A stretch of DNA of 64,000 nt. Origin: Chitinophaga pinensis. Its GTDB lineage: Bacteria; Bacteroidota; Bacteroidia; Chitinophagales; Chitinophagaceae. Both the position numbers and the translations under genes were made by a program. Positions within the stretch are counted from its first letter, which is position 1. The number at the start of each line of letters is the position of its first letter. The DNA is taken from NCBI GenBank assembly GCA_945872815.1, contig CAMCAY010000008.1, positions 1-64,000 of the forward strand. Reading direction: 5' to 3'. Below the pieces are notes generated by a model, which saw nothing but the letters and a program-made list of their open reading frames with translations, made no database searches and was not told the origin of the DNA. Below, one piece after another: positions 17,943-23,979 of the stretch.

Positions 17943-18989
17943 TTATTTGTTCATTGGAAGTAAAAAACCGAATGTGCTTCCTACCTCAACAGTGCTTCTT
18001 ACATCAATAATTTGTTGATGTGCTTCTAGAATATGTTTGCAGATGGCTAAGCCTAAACCACTTCCGCCTTCTTTTCTGCTTCTGGCATGATCAGTTCTGT
18101 AGAATCTCTCAAATATTCTGTGTTTATGTTCTTCTGAAATACCAATTCCATTATCACTTATTTCAATCAATACGTTTGTAGAACCCATTACATAAAAGCT
18201 TGCTTCAATAGTGCCATTTGTCTTTCCATACTTAATTGCGTTTTCAATTAAGTTAACAAATACTTGTTTGATTTTTTCTTTGTCAGCATAAACAATCAAT
18301 GGTTGTTCACATCCCTTTTTAATATGACCGGTAATTGATTTTTCTGATAACTTGAAAGACATTATTTCAAAAACATCCTTTACAACATCTTGAATAATGA
18401 AATAATCGAAATTTAATTGAAGGGTACCACTTTCAAGTTTTGAAATTTCATCAAGATCTTCTACAAGTTTAACTAGCCTTTCAATATTCAAAGCGGTATT
18501 TTGCAGAAACTTTGTATTGACTTCCGCATTAAACATTGCGCCGTTGATCAAGGTGTCAATATAGCCTTGAATTGAAAAGATTGGAGTTTTTAATTCATGG
18601 CTTAGGTTTTGAAGAAATTCTTTCCTGTAAATTTCATTTTGTATAAGTGTTTCTAATTGACTTCTTTTCTGCTCAGCCCAGTTTTCAGCATCAATTCTTG
18701 CTTCTTCAATACTCTTGTTTGGAAGAATGTTTTTAAAATAAAAATCTTCTTTTTTACTCAATTTTGTTTGAGAAATTAATTTGTAGATCAATTTTATCTT
18801 TCTGTAAGTAAATATTTCATACGAATAAAAAACAATGCAAAAAGACAAAAGGAAAATAACAAACCAAAATGCAAAAATGATCTTCCAATTTGAGTCAATA
18901 AAATAGATTAGTGGAGAAATCAAACTGGCAATGGCTAATCCAATAAAAAAAGCCAATTGTCTTGATGATATGTTTTTTTGAAAGGGCAT
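17943..18989 (-). CDS. Sensor histidine kinase (PhoR-like)
   Basis: A 348-residue membrane kinase. Two TM helices (about residues 11-30 and 35-53) are almost adjacent, so there is hardly any periplasmic sensor. A linker, the HisKA dimerisation domain and the HATPase domain follow. The phospho-acceptor lies in LSHELKTPI (His131). The ATPase boxes are seen as NLIENAIKYG (N), SDNGIGI (G1) and GGSGLGLAIC (G2). It is encoded 51 bp downstream of its response regulator on the same strand. The minimal sensor suggests it reads a membrane or cytoplasmic signal. The stimulus is not evident. Confidence 0.92.
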   Translation of the reverse strand: MPFQKNISSRQLAFFIGLAIASLISPLIYFIDSNWKIIFAFWFVIFLLSFCIVFYSYEIFTYRKIKLIYKLISQTKLSKKEDFYFKNILPNKSIEEARIDAENWAEQKRSQLETLIQNEIYRKEFLQNLSHELKTPIFSIQGYIDTLINGAMFNAEVNTKFLQNTALNIERLVKLVEDLDEISKLESGTLQLNFDYFIIQDVVKDVFEIMSFKLSEKSITGHIKKGCEQPLIVYADKEKIKQVFVNLIENAIKYGKTNGTIEASFYVMGSTNVLIEISDNGIGISEEHKHRIFERFYRTDHARSRKEGGSGLGLAICKHILEAHQQIIDVRSTVEVGSTFGFLLPMNK

Positions 18990-19040: not shown

Positions 19041-19715
19041 TTAAAGTTCAAACTTATAGCCTACTCCTTTTATAGTTGTTATACAATCAATATTCAGTTT
19101 TTGTCTGATTTTTCGAATGTGAACATCAATAGTTCTGTCGCCAACAATAACATCCGTCCCCCAAATTTTTTGCAGGATATCGTTTCTTAGAAAGACTTTT
19201 CCGGGACTTGAAGCCAACAATGAAAGTAATTCGAATTCTTTTCTTGCTAAAATAATATCTGACCCACGGTAAGTAACTTTATATTGCTCCCGGTCAATTG
19301 TTAATTCATCACTTTGATTGTCTGAAGCTAATGGAGTTGGTATTCTTCTAAACAACGCATTTACTTTACTCACCAAAACCATTGGCCTGATCGGTTTTAC
19401 AAGATAATCATCCGCACCTGATCGAAGACTCTTTACCTCAGTATCATCATCATTGATTGCCGTTAGAAAAATAATGACTGTATTTTTAAATGAAGGCAAC
19501 AATCTTAAATCTTCACATACCTGAAGTCCGCTTTTACCAGGCATCATCATGTCAAGTATAATCAAATCAGGAGAGATTTTTTTCGAAATTTCTATGGCCT
19601 CTATTCCATTTTTTACTGTAGTAACCTCATATCCTTCTGCTTCAAGATTGAATCTTAATATTTCAAGAATATCAGGTTCATCATCTGCAATCAGTATTTT
19701 TTTTTTGCCCACCAT
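19041..19715 (-). CDS. OmpR/PhoB-family response regulator
   Basis: A 224-residue two-domain regulator. The receiver domain has the acidic pocket Asp11-Asp12, the phosphorylation site Asp55 in DLIILDMMMPG, and the Lys of LVKPIRPM. The C-terminal winged helix ends with the typical GDRTIDVHIRKIRQKL and TIKGVGYKFEL segments, so it should bind DNA. It is first in a two-gene unit with the histidine kinase. A TAnnTTTG box lies 16 bp upstream of the ATG. The target genes are not evident. The PhoB-like sequence alone does not prove phosphate control. Confidence 0.94.
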   Translation of the reverse strand: MVGKKKILIADDEPDILEILRFNLEAEGYEVTTVKNGIEAIEISKKISPDLIILDMMMPGKSGLQVCEDLRLLPSFKNTVIIFLTAINDDDTEVKSLRSGADDYLVKPIRPMVLVSKVNALFRRIPTPLASDNQSDELTIDREQYKVTYRGSDIILARKEFELLSLLASSPGKVFLRNDILQKIWGTDVIVGDRTIDVHIRKIRQKLNIDCITTIKGVGYKFEL

Positions 19716-19739: not shown

Positions 19740-19865
19740 AGATTTAATTCATCGTTATATTTCTTTATAGGATATTATTAAATTGTTAACACGCCTTGTA
19801 ATAATTGCCTTAAATTTGAATACATAATTTATAGAAATGTCTTTCAGTTATCAGTTAAATTGACT

Positions 19866-19873
19866 CATCTTTG
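19866..19873 (+). promoter_or_regulatory. Near-consensus -7 box upstream of the caspase-like gene
   Basis: CATCTTTG differs from TAnnTTTG at one position and lies 50 bp before the ATG at 19924. It is the best candidate in this 208-bp divergent gap, but it is weak. Confidence 0.25.
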
Positions 19874-19923: not shown

Positions 19924-22128
19924 ATGAATTTGTTCTTCAAAATCATATTGTTGTTATTCATTTCAATATCTGTTAAAGCCGGTAATGATACTATCAACAT
20001 CCCCTTGAATAGACAATTTTTTCATGATAAAATAAACATCGAAAAAAGAAAGTGTGATAAAGTCGACGGGAATACGGACAGTGTAATGATAGTTGGAAAA
20101 AACGAGAAAATAAACAAGGATGTCACAGATGCTTTGTTTAGAGGAGTTAATTTGATGCAGGAATGGGTAGAGCTTAATGAAAAATCAAACAATGATAAAA
20201 TTCGTGAGTTGAGCTATATAGAAGCTATGCTGATGAATTTCAGAATTTCATTTAACAAAAAAGAAATTGAAGGTTTTGAATTTACCGAGTTGGTAAAAAT
20301 CCTGGAAACTATATTAAAGACTAATGATTCGTCTATTATTCCTTTCATAGAGAAATCTTCTTACGGAATTGCAAAAATCATTTCAGAAGTGTTTGCAGAT
20401 AATTCAGATTATCAGGAGTCACAAAAACTAATTTATCTCAAATATTGTAAAATACATCCTGAAAATATCATTACCACTATACGTTCATTTACTAGCGAAC
20501 CTTTTTCAGATAGTTTGATTTACATTGCCTGTAAAAATAACCCTTCAAAACTTTATACTTACGCACAATCAGTCAATACTCCAGAAGGCCGGCTGATTCA
20601 TAAAAGTAATATTCCGCTAGTAAAAACAATTGCTACATTAAGTCAGCTTCCCAATGCATTGATGTATTTTCCTTTTCTGGATGACTTACTTTCCGGCAAA
20701 AATTCAATTGAACTAATACAGAAATTTGTCGGCAATGATGAAAATACTTATGACAGTGTAGGATATTTCAAATTGCTGGTAAAAACAGAAATTGATTATC
20801 ATGGAAGAATGACATCCGTATTGAAAGACACTCCGATTGCTATGTTTGGAGTTAATGGCTTACGGGAAGTATTAAAAGATCGAGCTATCAGACATTTTAT
20901 CAATCCCATCAATCTTTTGCACAATGAAAATAATCTTGATGTCAGGATGCATGCCATTGATTCATTGTCGCCGGTTGAATTGTATTATATGGTGGTGATG
21001 GGAGAAAATGAAATATATACTTCGAGCTTTAAACACAGTTTCAACAGAATGATGCAAAGAATGGGTGCTAATACGGCTTCAGATTCTTTGTTACTAAAAG
21101 TAAAGTTTGATTATTTTAAGAAGTTCATTAAAATGGCAGCTAATTACAATAAACTGGATACCTTTTTAAGAAGCATGCCTCTAAAAAATTCCAGAATTTT
21201 AATGAAAGCATTTGTTGCAAAATTAGAAGGACCCGATGGCATGGAAGATGCTACGGATGTTGCAGATTCTTATAGCAGCATCACTAACCCACTGCTCAAA
21301 AAAACCATCCTCCGTTATATTACTGAAAACGAAAAAAAATGTATTTCACGTAATAACGAAAATGGCATACTCGTGTACGGCCTTCTTAAAAACATTTTTC
21401 TTTCAGAAGACAGTTCCAATAAAATTGATTTAACTGGAATTGCAGGAATTCCTTCTGTTTATGAAATAGACAAAAAATCACTGATGGATGTAAATGGTAG
21501 AATTGCAGAGCAAGTCTTTTTTTATGGAGATGAAGACGGCAAAACCTATTTCCCTATTTTTTTAAATTCATTTTCCTCTAAAGATTGGAAGATAACTCAA
21601 AATCCTGAGTGGGTTGAAATAAGGTCCGTAAAGGGGAATGTTTTTATTTATGCAAACAAGCCATTGGATTACGATGCCAATTTGGATGACAGTGCTCAAT
21701 ATCACTTGATAGAATACCTTAGAAAAAATGACATTGTTCCAACCATAGTAGTGCATCGCGGACATAGTTATTGGCTACAGGGAACTATCAACAGAATGCC
21801 CGAGGATGCTAAGATTGTTTTAATTGGATCTTGCGGAGGGTATAAAAATCTGAATAAAATTCTTGAAAGCTCTCCCAATGCCAACATTATTTCTACTAAA
21901 GAAATTGGTGCAGGTGATATCAATAAGCCCATTCTAAATTATATTAATCAAGCTTTGTTGAATAACAATAAAATATCCTGGAGAGAAATGTGGAAATCAC
22001 TGTCAAGATTATTTAACAACGATCCCAATAAATCGATTTACGAAACTTGGGAAAATTATATACCACCATATAAAAATCTCGGAGCAATTTTTATAAAAGC
22101 CTACAACAGAAAAATTGAAATAATGTAA
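19924..22128 (+). CDS. Secreted protein of unknown function with a caspase-like (clan CD) His/Cys motif
   Basis: A 734-residue protein that I cannot assign to a named family. It has a signal peptide (MNLFFKIILLLFISISVKAG). Residues about 60-480 look helical and repeat-like and have no motif I know. Residues 520-700 look like an alpha/beta domain: a hydrophobic strand runs into VVHRGHSYW (His611, His614), and a second strand runs into IVLIGSCGGYKNL (Cys637). A strand-His-Gly-His block followed by strand-x-Ser-Cys-Gly-Gly is the pattern of clan CD cysteine peptidases such as caspases, gingipains and CHAT domains. Proteolytic activity is an inference. The ABC exporter gene starts 24 bp downstream. 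Confidence 0.6.
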   Translation: MNLFFKIILLLFISISVKAGNDTINIPLNRQFFHDKINIEKRKCDKVDGNTDSVMIVGKNEKINKDVTDALFRGVNLMQEWVELNEKSNNDKIRELSYIEAMLMNFRISFNKKEIEGFEFTELVKILETILKTNDSSIIPFIEKSSYGIAKIISEVFADNSDYQESQKLIYLKYCKIHPENIITTIRSFTSEPFSDSLIYIACKNNPSKLYTYAQSVNTPEGRLIHKSNIPLVKTIATLSQLPNALMYFPFLDDLLSGKNSIELIQKFVGNDENTYDSVGYFKLLVKTEIDYHGRMTSVLKDTPIAMFGVNGLREVLKDRAIRHFINPINLLHNENNLDVRMHAIDSLSPVELYYMVVMGENEIYTSSFKHSFNRMMQRMGANTASDSLLLKVKFDYFKKFIKMAANYNKLDTFLRSMPLKNSRILMKAFVAKLEGPDGMEDATDVADSYSSITNPLLKKTILRYITENEKKCISRNNENGILVYGLLKNIFLSEDSSNKIDLTGIAGIPSVYEIDKKSLMDVNGRIAEQVFFYGDEDGKTYFPIFLNSFSSKDWKITQNPEWVEIRSVKGNVFIYANKPLDYDANLDDSAQYHLIEYLRKNDIVPTIVVHRGHSYWLQGTINRMPEDAKIVLIGSCGGYKNLNKILESSPNANIISTKEIGAGDINKPILNYINQALLNNNKISWREMWKSLSRLFNNDPNKSIYETWENYIPPYKNLGAIFIKAYNRKIEIM

Positions 22129-22152: not shown

Positions 22153-23979
22153 ATGAAAAAATCTCCTTCCAGTATGGCTTTTAATAAAGTGCTTGTAAAG
22201 AGGATTTTCGGTTTTACTACACCCTATAAAAAAAAATTCCGCCTTGCTGTTTTTCTTTCAATCTTCCTGGCGTTATTGGCTCCTATTCGGCCAATGTTGA
22301 TACAAATAACTCTAAACAAGGGTATATCACAACACGCAGCTTCTATTTTTTTTCATGGGCCCGGTGGTTTCATAATAGAGCTGACTATTATTCAGATTCT
22401 TTTATTGATGGTAGAAACGGCAACAAGATTTTATTTTACCTATTCAACAGCTTCTTTGGGTCAGAGTGTGGTAAAGGACTTGCGAAATATCACTTTTTCA
22501 AAAATAATTCGTTATCCGTTGAAGCAATTTGATTCAACACCTATCGGAACTTTAACTACCCGAACCATCAACGATATAGAATCCGTTAACGATGTTTTCA
22601 GTGATGGTTTCATCCCAATCATAGCTGATTTGCTATCAATACTATCCGTACTTCTATACATGTTTTATATAGATTGGAAAATCACATTGGTTTGTTTGTT
22701 GCCGTTTCCTATTTTAATAATAGCTACTTATATTTTCAAAGAATCTGTAAATATATCTTTTACAAAAGTCAGAAATGCGATTTCGAATTTGAATGCTTTT
22801 GTTCAAGAGCATCTTACCGGCATTGCGGTTATACAGGCTTTTGCTGCGGAGAAACGAGAAAACGAAAAATTCACAGCTATCAACAAAGAACATCGGGATG
22901 CCAATATAAAAGCCATTTTTGCTTATGCAGTTTTTTTTCCCGTTGTGGAACTTGTTTCGGCAGTATCTATTGGATTACTTGTTTGGTGGGCTGCAAGGCA
23001 AAGCTCTTTTTTGCCTGCTGAGCAATCAATGAATATCGCAGGAATTGTTACCTCATTTATTTTATGCCTCAATCTTCTTTTTCGACCATTGAGAATGATT
23101 GCAGATAAATTCAATGTGCTGCAAATGGGATTGATAGCGAGTGAGCGGGTATTCAAAGTATTGGATAATCTCGATGAAAGGCAGATAAACAATTTCAACC
23201 ATTCATCAGATGAGGAGCCACCCTTAGTGATAAAGGGCAATATTGAATTCCGTCATGTATGGTTTTCATATCAGGAGGAACAATATGTGTTAAGAAATAT
23301 TTCCTTTAAGGTAAATGCAGGGCAAACCATTGCAATTGTTGGAAATACAGGAAGTGGTAAAACTACAATTGCAAGTTTGATAAACAGGTTATATCCAATT
23401 GATAAAGGTTCAATATTTATCGACGAAAAAGACATTAATAACATAAATATTAATTGCTTAAGAAGCCATATTTCAGTTGTATTGCAGGATGTTTTTTTAT
23501 TTGCCGGATCAATTATTGATAATCTTACTTTGAGAAATCCTGAAATTTCCATGCAAGACGTCGTGTATGCAACAAACTTGATTGGAATTCATGATTTTAT
23601 TTTAAGTCTTCCAGGCGGATATGATTATAACGTTATGGAAAGGGGAGCAACACTATCTATGGGTCAGCGACAACTGTTATCTTTCGCAAGGGCTATTTTA
23701 TATAATCCTTCCATCTTGATTTTAGATGAAGCTACTTCGTCAATAGATTCGGAAAGTGAAATGTTGATTCAGCATGCAATCGATAAGATTATTCACGGAA
23801 GAACATCGATTGTAATTGCACATAGGCTAAGTACTATTAAAAAAGCGGATAATATAATTGTTTTAGAAAAGGGAGAAATAGCAGAAATGGGGAACCATGA
23901 AACTCTTTTTGCCCAAAAAGGACAATATTTTAATCTTTGTGAGACACAATTTGCCGAAAATGCAGATAAAAGCGGTTAA
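22153..23979 (+). CDS. ABC exporter half-transporter (MsbA/MdlB-like)
   Basis: A 608-residue fusion of a six-helix permease (about residues 20-330) and an ATPase. The ATPase has Walker A GNTGSGKTT (Lys403), the ABC signature LSMGQ (residues 501-505), Walker B ILILDEATSS (Asp525, Glu526) and the switch histidine in IAHRLS. It should act as a homodimer, or with another half, to export lipids, drugs or peptides. The substrate cannot be read from the sequence. The gene starts 24 bp after the caspase-like protein gene, so they may be co-transcribed, and export of that protein's substrate or product is one untested possibility. Confidence 0.92.
   Translation: MKKSPSSMAFNKVLVKRIFGFTTPYKKKFRLAVFLSIFLALLAPIRPMLIQITLNKGISQHAASIFFHGPGGFIIELTIIQILLLMVETATRFYFTYSTASLGQSVVKDLRNITFSKIIRYPLKQFDSTPIGTLTTRTINDIESVNDVFSDGFIPIIADLLSILSVLLYMFYIDWKITLVCLLPFPILIIATYIFKESVNISFTKVRNAISNLNAFVQEHLTGIAVIQAFAAEKRENEKFTAINKEHRDANIKAIFAYAVFFPVVELVSAVSIGLLVWWAARQSSFLPAEQSMNIAGIVTSFILCLNLLFRPLRMIADKFNVLQMGLIASERVFKVLDNLDERQINNFNHSSDEEPPLVIKGNIEFRHVWFSYQEEQYVLRNISFKVNAGQTIAIVGNTGSGKTTIASLINRLYPIDKGSIFIDEKDINNININCLRSHISVVLQDVFLFAGSIIDNLTLRNPEISMQDVVYATNLIGIHDFILSLPGGYDYNVMERGATLSMGQRQLLSFARAILYNPSILILDEATSSIDSESEMLIQHAIDKIIHGRTSIVIAHRLSTIKKADNIIVLEKGEIAEMGNHETLFAQKGQYFNLCETQFAENADKSG

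Follow-up and report, generated by a model that had tools for sequence, protein, structure and literature searches.

We analyzed a window of 64,000 nucleotides from Chitinophaga pinensis (Bacteroidota; family Chitinophagaceae), corresponding to positions 1 to 64,000 of contig CAMCAY010000008.1 in assembly GCA_945872815.1. Between a divergently transcribed response regulator gene and an ATP-binding cassette (ABC) transporter gene lies a forward-strand gene (positions 19924 to 22128) whose open reading frame (ORF), translation, and family describe a probably exported helical protein of 734 amino acids with a C-terminal caspase-like domain. An initial annotation, made from the sequence alone, had proposed that this protein is a divergent exported peptidase of clan CD with a large helical partner domain. 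The frame and length of the ORF are as described there, and so are the positions of the signal peptide, His611, His614, and Cys637 (read from the sequence, with the signal peptide judged by eye). We propose that the protein is an exported clan CD-type cysteine endopeptidase, probably in a family of its own; given the conservation of its sequence and its predicted structure, we put the probability of this at roughly 70%.

The features of the protein are all on the forward strand. Residues 1 to 19 (positions 19924 to 19980) are a probable signal peptide, as judged by eye, and the N-termini of other family members are also hydrophobic in the alignment. The N-terminus, MNLFFKIILLLFISISVKA followed by GND, looks like a signal peptidase I site, with V-K-A before the likely cut, and the signal sequence has no lipobox cysteine (both by eye only). 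The signal peptide suggests export by the Sec system, and the protein would act in the periplasm or beyond. Residues 28 to 507 (positions 20005 to 21444) are predicted to be an all-helical domain, as suggested by an AlphaFold2 model and by conservation. Residues 514 to 733 (positions 21463 to 22122) are predicted to form the alpha/beta caspase-like domain, as suggested by AlphaFold2 models and structural alignments. Three motifs stand out in this domain: D536-x-D538 (positions 21529 to 21537), which follows the first strand and is conserved, and which is a candidate for an S1 pocket acid or a metal site; H611-R-G-H614-S615 (positions 21754 to 21768), within VVHRGHSYW, which in the family alignment probably includes the catalytic histidine (H614 is favored); and G635-S-C637-G638 (positions 21826 to 21837), within IVLIGSCGG, where Cys637 is the probable nucleophile.

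The gene is a core gene of its bacterial family: it is present in 144 of 146 genomes. Within the order, it is found in all 36 genomes of the same genus and in 6 of 23 others (42 of 59 in all). Across the class, we found it in 19 of 296 genomes, of which 8 belong to its own family, 8 to another family (f71), and 2 to a third (f78), with one weak and partial match in a fourth (f30). A profile search across the phylum found the gene in 15 of 392 genomes, all of them in its own family. Relatives of the gene in named records come mostly from Chitinophagaceae and Ferruginibacter, and identity among members of the protein family falls to about 25%. Two copies are present in five genomes of the order (G038, G042, G044, G054, and G058), and one of the two is longer, at 931 to 1076 residues; in two of the five, the extra part of the longer copy resembles the query's own helical region. 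Longer paralogues of this size are found at the loci L067, L069, L070, L072, and L073, and they adjoin the short form in L067, L070, and L073. The reading frame is split at differing points in the loci L013 and L033 and the genomes G006, G031, and G033, which could be due to assembly error or to real decay.

This near-universal, well conserved, exported protein is fit by no model in Pfam, NCBIfam, or PADLOC. No Pfam family matches it at E values of up to 10, and since Pfam includes a C50 model, this covers separase (C50) too. There was no PADLOC match either. Of the families of clan CD, CHAT (PF12770), C11 (PF03415), C25 (PF01364), and C14 (PF00656) do not match the protein and are absent among the 25 of 33 Pfam families that were listed for 35 members. 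C11 and C14 have no match anywhere in its genome either, and the genome's single C25 match is another gene, on contig C5. Judged by sequence comparison, the family is not CHAT, C11, C25, C14, or C50 as these are modelled in Pfam; to the extent that sequence and predicted fold can tell, it would nevertheless work in the manner of a clan CD peptidase. When the PDB was searched by sequence, the full profile returned 8 rows, all from outside clan CD, and the profile of the C-terminal domain returned none. In the library of open-access papers that was searched, we found no publication that, judged by its listing, describes the family. We considered and set aside a few weak matches as chance: the NCBIfam model for RNA polymerase subunit F against the protein itself (22 bits, versus a cut-off of 182), and matches of single family members to the PADLOC models for SIR2 (E = 0.0012) or GajB (E = 0.0042) or to Pfam's DnaA_N (E = 0.00066).

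The case for a peptidase begins with the conserved residues. We obtained 159 matches, of which 157 reach the C-terminus, and merged identical strings to give 124 distinct ORFs (a gene that is present in two loci with different ends may be counted twice). H611, R612, G613, S615, G635, C637, and G638 are kept in all 123 aligned rows. The remaining row has no letters at the motif columns because it is a long paralogue that was aligned by its other part, and it does carry HRGHS and GSCGG. H614 is kept in 122 of 123 rows. The initial annotation had made its proposal depend on the constancy of these residues, and neither Cys637 nor the two histidines vary freely across the 124 ORFs. D536 and D538 are aspartate in 122 of 124 rows, and the exceptions are the same long paralogue, which is misaligned there, and a fragment that lacks that stretch. 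R612, K659, W686, W690, and N718 are also constant or nearly so. The long paralogue in L073 has tyrosine at the position of His614 (the sole exception at that position) and arginine at that of Lys659. (A smaller alignment of 35 chosen members, A1, excludes the long paralogues and L090, which has an internal stop; L074 in it is cut by the end of a contig.)

We found that the conserved sites cluster where a clan CD active site would be. For this comparison, the core strands were taken to be residues 527-533, 608-612, 631-634, and 654-658, with a parallel core assumed from their place in beta-alpha units. Residues 514 to 733 include 23 sites that are at least 97% conserved. Of these, 13 fall among the 36 positions that surround the core strands' C-terminal ends (hypergeometric P = 2.8e-6, for positions chosen after the model was seen). 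For comparison, the 36 positions at the N-terminal ends of the core strands include no such site, and a set of 36 at the C-terminal ends of non-core strands includes 4. Other sheets of similar kind also place their active sites at the C-terminal ends of strands. For clan CD, the catalytic residues sit at these ends (PMC4357240; this and the other papers are cited by PubMed Central number). In the helical domain, conservation is higher in residues 312 to 507, where N330, Y354, and Y485 are at least 97% conserved; no such site lies in residues 28 to 311.

In the model, strand 608-612 ends in His611-Arg612 and strand 631-634 precedes Cys637 (as positions along the chain). The expectation from the initial annotation, that a histidine and then a cysteine would follow successive core strands, holds in the model for the order along the chain; the spacing is shorter than in caspase-7, PmC11, Csx29, and YabG (see below). 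We propose that Cys637 would be the nucleophile and that His614 (or, less likely, His611) would be the base, with each following one of two successive core strands. We favor His614 because it is preceded by a glycine, as in the GH motifs of clan CD. G613 comes before H614 in 123 of 123 rows, so that a glycine adjoins the probable catalytic histidine (in the wording of PMC12445089).

Structural comparisons also point to clan CD. We used AlphaFold2 with 36 sequences to model the whole protein (predicted local distance difference test score of 87.7 and predicted template modelling score of 0.74), which yielded an arm of helices and, at the C-terminus, an alpha/beta domain, and to model residues 487 to 734 alone (scores of 86.2 and 0.87). 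We then ran a structural alignment on candidates from Foldseek. Rows no more than 1 Z apart were considered tied, and the tool cautions that a Z below 8 may reflect a common arrangement. For the full model, the top row was the SAVED-CHAT protein 8tl0 (Z = 9.2, root-mean-square deviation 3.5, 162 residues aligned), followed by the C11 peptidase iotapain (6nag; Z = 8.9, deviation 4.3, 183 aligned). Complexes of Csx29 (8eex and 8d9f), a C11 zymogen (6mzo), separase (5fby), and clostripain (9cip) were at Z of 7.4 to 7.9, and the highest GTPase row was 3r7w at Z = 7.8. The first 16 rows include entries for DdvA (an anti-sigma factor), Csx29, C11, separase, and clostripain. When only the domain was aligned, C11 took ranks 1 to 3 (Z = 8.7, 8.4, and 7.7), and Arf, Gtr, and clostripain rows followed from Z = 7.1 down. 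CHAT and separase rows were missing among the best 50 for the domain, though both are in the list for the full model, and this excludes nothing. The order of elements along the chain in the model agrees with the clan CD sheet (chain order only), in which strands are arranged 2-1-3-4 with helices 1-3 (PMC4357240). Furthermore, the model has three strands at residues 555-578, in the stretch from helix 1 to helix 2, that agree with the additional strands 2-4 described for PmC11 (section 11 of the same paper). For the helical arm, all structural rows were under the tool's threshold for helical bundles, so we do not name a fold for it. Because rows within 1 Z are tied, the evidence from the predicted fold alone is suggestive of a clan CD-like domain.

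We also compared the profile of the family's C-terminal domain with profiles that we built for CHAT, C11, C25, C14, and, as a control, FeoB (each from up to 30 best-match loci, or 9 for C11). With the family as the query, Cys637 is aligned, in the best local matches to CHAT, C11, and C14, to the cysteine that follows a strand in those families, which we take to be the catalytic one; the best matches with C25 and FeoB lie away from Cys637. The score of CHAT (27.0) exceeded all 60 column shuffles (the largest was 21.3), and the score of C14 (19.8) exceeded the 95th percentile of the shuffles and not the largest. CHAT scored best of the four clan CD families that the profile search covered, including the C25 comparison that had been suggested with the initial annotation. 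Comparisons between families of clan CD span a wide range of scores: in the two directions, they gave 0.6 and 1.9% for CHAT and C25 and 0.2 and 0.4% for C11 and C25, versus 83 and 77% for CHAT and C14. The FeoB control gave 0.2 and 0.9% with the family's domain.

A number of observations weigh against a clan CD peptidase. First, the scores of these profile comparisons are low: CHAT reached 6.8 and 11.3% in the two directions, and C14 (1.1 and 1.5%), C11 (0.2 and 1.7%), and C25 (0.2 and 0.3%) did not exceed 1.7%. C11 scored only at the mean of its column shuffles (15.6), and with C11 as the query, the best match leaves the cysteine unpaired. When block shuffles leave the motif intact, they attain the score of CHAT (95th percentile of 28.4, versus 27.0), so the profile signal is the motif itself. 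Second, the best GTPase row is just 1.4 Z (full model) or 1.6 Z (domain) under the best clan CD row, and it ties with the lower clan CD rows. Foldseek alone had no recognizable clan CD chain among its best 50 for either model; for the domain it favors GTPases, and the sole row below 1e-3 is a chain of the SMG8-SMG9 complex. Third, the commoner clan CD order at the catalytic histidine is His-Gly, and here His614 is followed by serine, so that this order is absent. The paralogue with tyrosine in place of His614 may be an inactive copy, or else this tyrosine may favor His611. Finally, Cys637 lies just 23 residues after H614, or 26 after H611, which is short compared to the pairs in caspase-7 (144/186) and PmC11 (133/179; both PMC4357240), Csx29 (615/658; PMC10028731), and YabG from Clostridioides difficile (161/207; PMC12445089). 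Of the original proposal, then, conservation and the clan CD rows at the top of the structural alignments support the part on an exported, divergent protein that is clan CD-like and has a large helical partner; a caspase fold is suggested, with GTPases close behind. The fold search itself was split in the same way, with the structural alignment ranking clan CD first and Foldseek alone favoring GTPases.

Among known systems, the closest parallel by the domain model is with secreted C11 peptidases of Bacteroidota (iotapain, 6nag and 6n9j, and PmC11). These are secreted proteins from the same phylum; they give the best match at the domain level (Z = 8.7, 184 residues aligned); and they share the three strands between helices 1 and 2 and a histidine and cysteine after successive core strands. 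In contrast, identity is just 8-13% in the structural rows, profile comparison gives the low values above, and the 734-residue protein has a shorter His-Cys spacing and a large helical arm before the core. CHAT proteins have a C-terminal His/Cys domain as well, and in Csx29 (TPR-CHAT, where TPR is short for tetratricopeptide repeat) it likewise comes after a helical arm. SAVED-CHAT is the top row for the full model, and CHAT has the best profile score. However, Csx29 and SAVED-CHAT belong to CRISPR systems in the cytoplasm, while our protein is predicted to be exported and has no PADLOC match; the His-Cys spacing is 43 in Csx29, versus 23 or 26 here, and there is no match to CHAT in Pfam. Separase has a helical N-terminal part and a C-terminal clan CD domain (5fby, ctSPD; Z = 7.8, 167 residues aligned), and its His-Cys spacing is similar to that of our protein; it is eukaryotic and much larger. 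Gingipains and PorU are exported clan CD peptidases of Bacteroidota. Against C25, the profile comparison is as weak as given above, and our protein has no C-terminal sorting domain (by eye).

If the protein is a protease, then D536 and D538, which follow the first strand, might line the pocket for a substrate residue or else hold a metal (a Ca2+ site is the alternative). In gingipain R, an acidic residue after strand 1, Asp163, holds a basic P1 residue, as does Asp365 in MALT1 (PMC4626109). Because D536 and D538 are placed like these residues, our guess is arginine or lysine at P1; cleavage after Arg or Lys has about even odds, on the condition that the two aspartates act as they do in gingipain R and MALT1. 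Lys659, which is nearly constant, does not favor this guess. The helical arm, of about 480 residues, might bind a substrate or partner and restrain or switch on the protease domain. By analogy to Csx29, whose catalytic residues are repositioned when its TPR arm changes (PMC10028731), such gating is conceivable, and we judge the odds to be slightly against it. We consider it rather unlikely, as a more specific version of this idea, that the protein represents a new clan CD family and is a core envelope enzyme of the Chitinophagaceae whose helical arm senses a partner or a damaged envelope protein and allosterically switches the caspase-like domain, which then makes one specific cut. What the data show are the ORF, the constant residues, the predicted fold in two parts with its structural ranking, and the gene's presence in nearly the whole family; we infer proteolysis, the site of action, the specificity, and the gating alike. 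A protease of this kind would add to clan CD a member that has the unusual signature HRGHS/GSCGG, a His-Cys spacing that is short, and a helical arm located outside of the cytoplasm. It would also mean that arm-gated caspase-like switches, as in separase and Craspase, become testable in the bacterial envelope. A sensing arm, if true, would make it the exported counterpart of the layout of separase and Craspase.

We considered two other activities for the C-terminal domain, both of which we think improbable. The protein might be a thiol enzyme on a clan CD scaffold that does not cut proteins, such as a transpeptidase, ligase, amidase, or acyltransferase that acts on envelope polymers. R612, K659, W686, W690, and N718 match no clan CD feature that we could name, which would fit such an enzyme, and legumain has ligase activity besides proteolysis (PMC9604545). 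However, 8 of the first 11 rows for the full model are peptidases or complexes of one (2 others are DdvA and 1 is a GTPase), and we noted no envelope biosynthesis gene as a steady neighbor, with the unlabelled ORFs not identified one by one.

Similarly improbable is a Rossmann-like domain with a GTPase-type arrangement, without protease activity, that binds a ligand or nucleotide. For the domain, Foldseek places GTPase-type chains first (a chain of the SMG8-SMG9 complex at 8.4e-4, FeoB, and MglA); Gtr and Arf chains appear in the structural alignments at Z = 7.8 and below; and our protein has GDEDGKT after strand 1, which is Walker A (GxxxxGK[ST]) minus one residue. But none of the 124 rows has GxxxxGK[ST] within residues 528-550, and the shorter GxxxGK[ST] is present in just 20. 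Position 540 is lysine in just 69 of 124 rows, and position 541 is freely variable, unlike the constant D536 and D538. As Walker A is absent family-wide and Lys540 is variable, a nucleotide-binding loop is not a feature of the family. The NKxD-like ANKPLD is no better conserved: K579 is lysine in 53 of 124 rows (it is also arginine or leucine), and residue 582 is aspartate in 74 of 124. Furthermore, in the first 30 rows for the domain, GTPase chains align over 124-149 residues and C11 chains over 179-188, up to the C-terminus, and the profile comparison with FeoB gave just the 0.2 and 0.9% noted above. Finally, the protein is predicted to leave the cytoplasm, and GTP is not expected outside of it.

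We return to the probable clan CD-type peptidase and its neighbors. On the reverse strand upstream are a response regulator (positions 19041 to 19715, with the Pfam domains Response_reg and Trans_reg_C), which is its divergent neighbor, and a histidine kinase (positions 17943 to 18989, identified by Pfam). In the kinase, just about five residues separate two hydrophobic stretches (by eye), so it appears to have little or no periplasmic sensor part. Downstream on the forward strand is an ABC half-transporter (positions 22153 to 23979, with the Pfam domains ABC_membrane and ABC_tran), a frequent, non-obligate neighbor that starts 24 base pairs past position 22128, as the initial annotation had it. 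To count adjacency, we used 121 loci, merged by the last 300 residues, and dropped those with under 700 nucleotides of flank. In bands of falling identity (at least 60, 45-60, 38-45, 33-38, and below 33%), the divergent regulator is present in 20/20, 38/39, 32/33, 4/9, and 0/18 loci, and the transporter is downstream on the same strand in 21/21, 33/36, 14/33, 4/9, and 0/17. In more distant relatives, we saw TrmH-like and MutS-like neighbors (by eye), which look like housekeeping genes and give no clue to function.

The regulator pair is a better candidate for a partner than the transporter. It might control the putative peptidase via the shared promoter region, which would be compatible with proteolysis. 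At identities of at least 38%, the regulator is divergent in 90 of 92 members, and the shared region includes a conserved element (see below). In L073 (1938-9268), which is from a different family of the order, a regulator, a kinase, a DUF547 gene, and two copies of the peptidase gene lie in a row on one strand. On the other hand, the regulator has a counterpart (50-54% identity, with the next best much lower) in four genomes without a match to the peptidase (G052, G239, G036, and G072), and G790 has the peptidase without a close regulator (37% at best). Two genomes of the family lack the peptidase; the regulator is retained in G703 and missing from G745 (34% at best). Also, the conserved element seems to be tied to the regulator, as G703 keeps it. 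We therefore hold control of the peptidase by this pair to be a plausible idea that is nonetheless more doubtful than probable.

The transporter directly follows the gene, without a change of strand, in 68 of 90 members with at least 38% identity and enough flank, which fits the suggestion of the initial annotation that the ABC exporter and the peptidase cooperate in export or maturation. We nonetheless think such cooperation very improbable: the adjacency fades with distance (so the transporter is no fixed partner) while the regulator is steadier, L095 and L096 have the regulator pair without a transporter in the available stretch, the peptidase has its own signal peptide, and the transporter often precedes ATP synthase genes (except in L017, L024, and L035); it is probably just a neighbor.

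The conserved element is a 17-base-pair sequence at positions 19773 to 19789 on the reverse strand that is probably part of the regulator's promoter. It reads TTAACAATTTAATAATA towards the regulator, about 74 bases before that gene; the conserved 17-mer of the shared intergenic region is TATTATYAAATTGTTAA. We found this 17-mer as a single copy in 44 of 58 genomes of the genus, and the reversed control matched in 0 of 58. We checked the flanking genes for 39 of the 44: the divergent pair flanks the element in all 30 loci that were tested by sequence for both genes, and 9 of 9 others lie 98 to 188 bases before the peptidase gene, by coordinates (on the peptidase side only). Allowing for 2 mismatches, the element is in 57 of 58 intergenic regions in the genus, versus 18 of 35 outside of it. 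In G703, the element is at -79 of the regulator with one mismatch, as compared to a least value of 3 in 20 shuffles. In G763 and G130, where the peptidase gene lies elsewhere, the candidates at -75 differ by 3 and 4 mismatches, a level that is also reached in the best of 20 shuffles. Towards the regulator in G052, G239, G036, G072, G042, and G343, there was nothing better than 5 to 7 mismatches. We considered the element as a dedicated link between the regulator and the peptidase and dropped this idea, mainly because of G703, as the element seems to be tied to the regulator alone. It is most likely the regulator's own (autoregulatory) box. A relaxed search of the window's own genome gave 4 matches, including the site itself, versus 7 for the reversed control, so we do not claim a regulon.

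The element looks like an autoregulatory direct repeat of the OmpR type. A copy of its 16-base core with one mismatch is found in L292 (around 1501-1516), near the divergent starts of LptD-like and amidase-like genes (by eye), and the number of such relaxed copies of the core is not above the control. The shared region also contains CATCTTTG (positions 19866-19873), about 50 bases before the start of the peptidase gene, which resembles the -7 box of Bacteroidota. CATCTTTG is enriched in the intergenic regions between the regulator and the peptidase (27 of 93, versus 0.7 expected).

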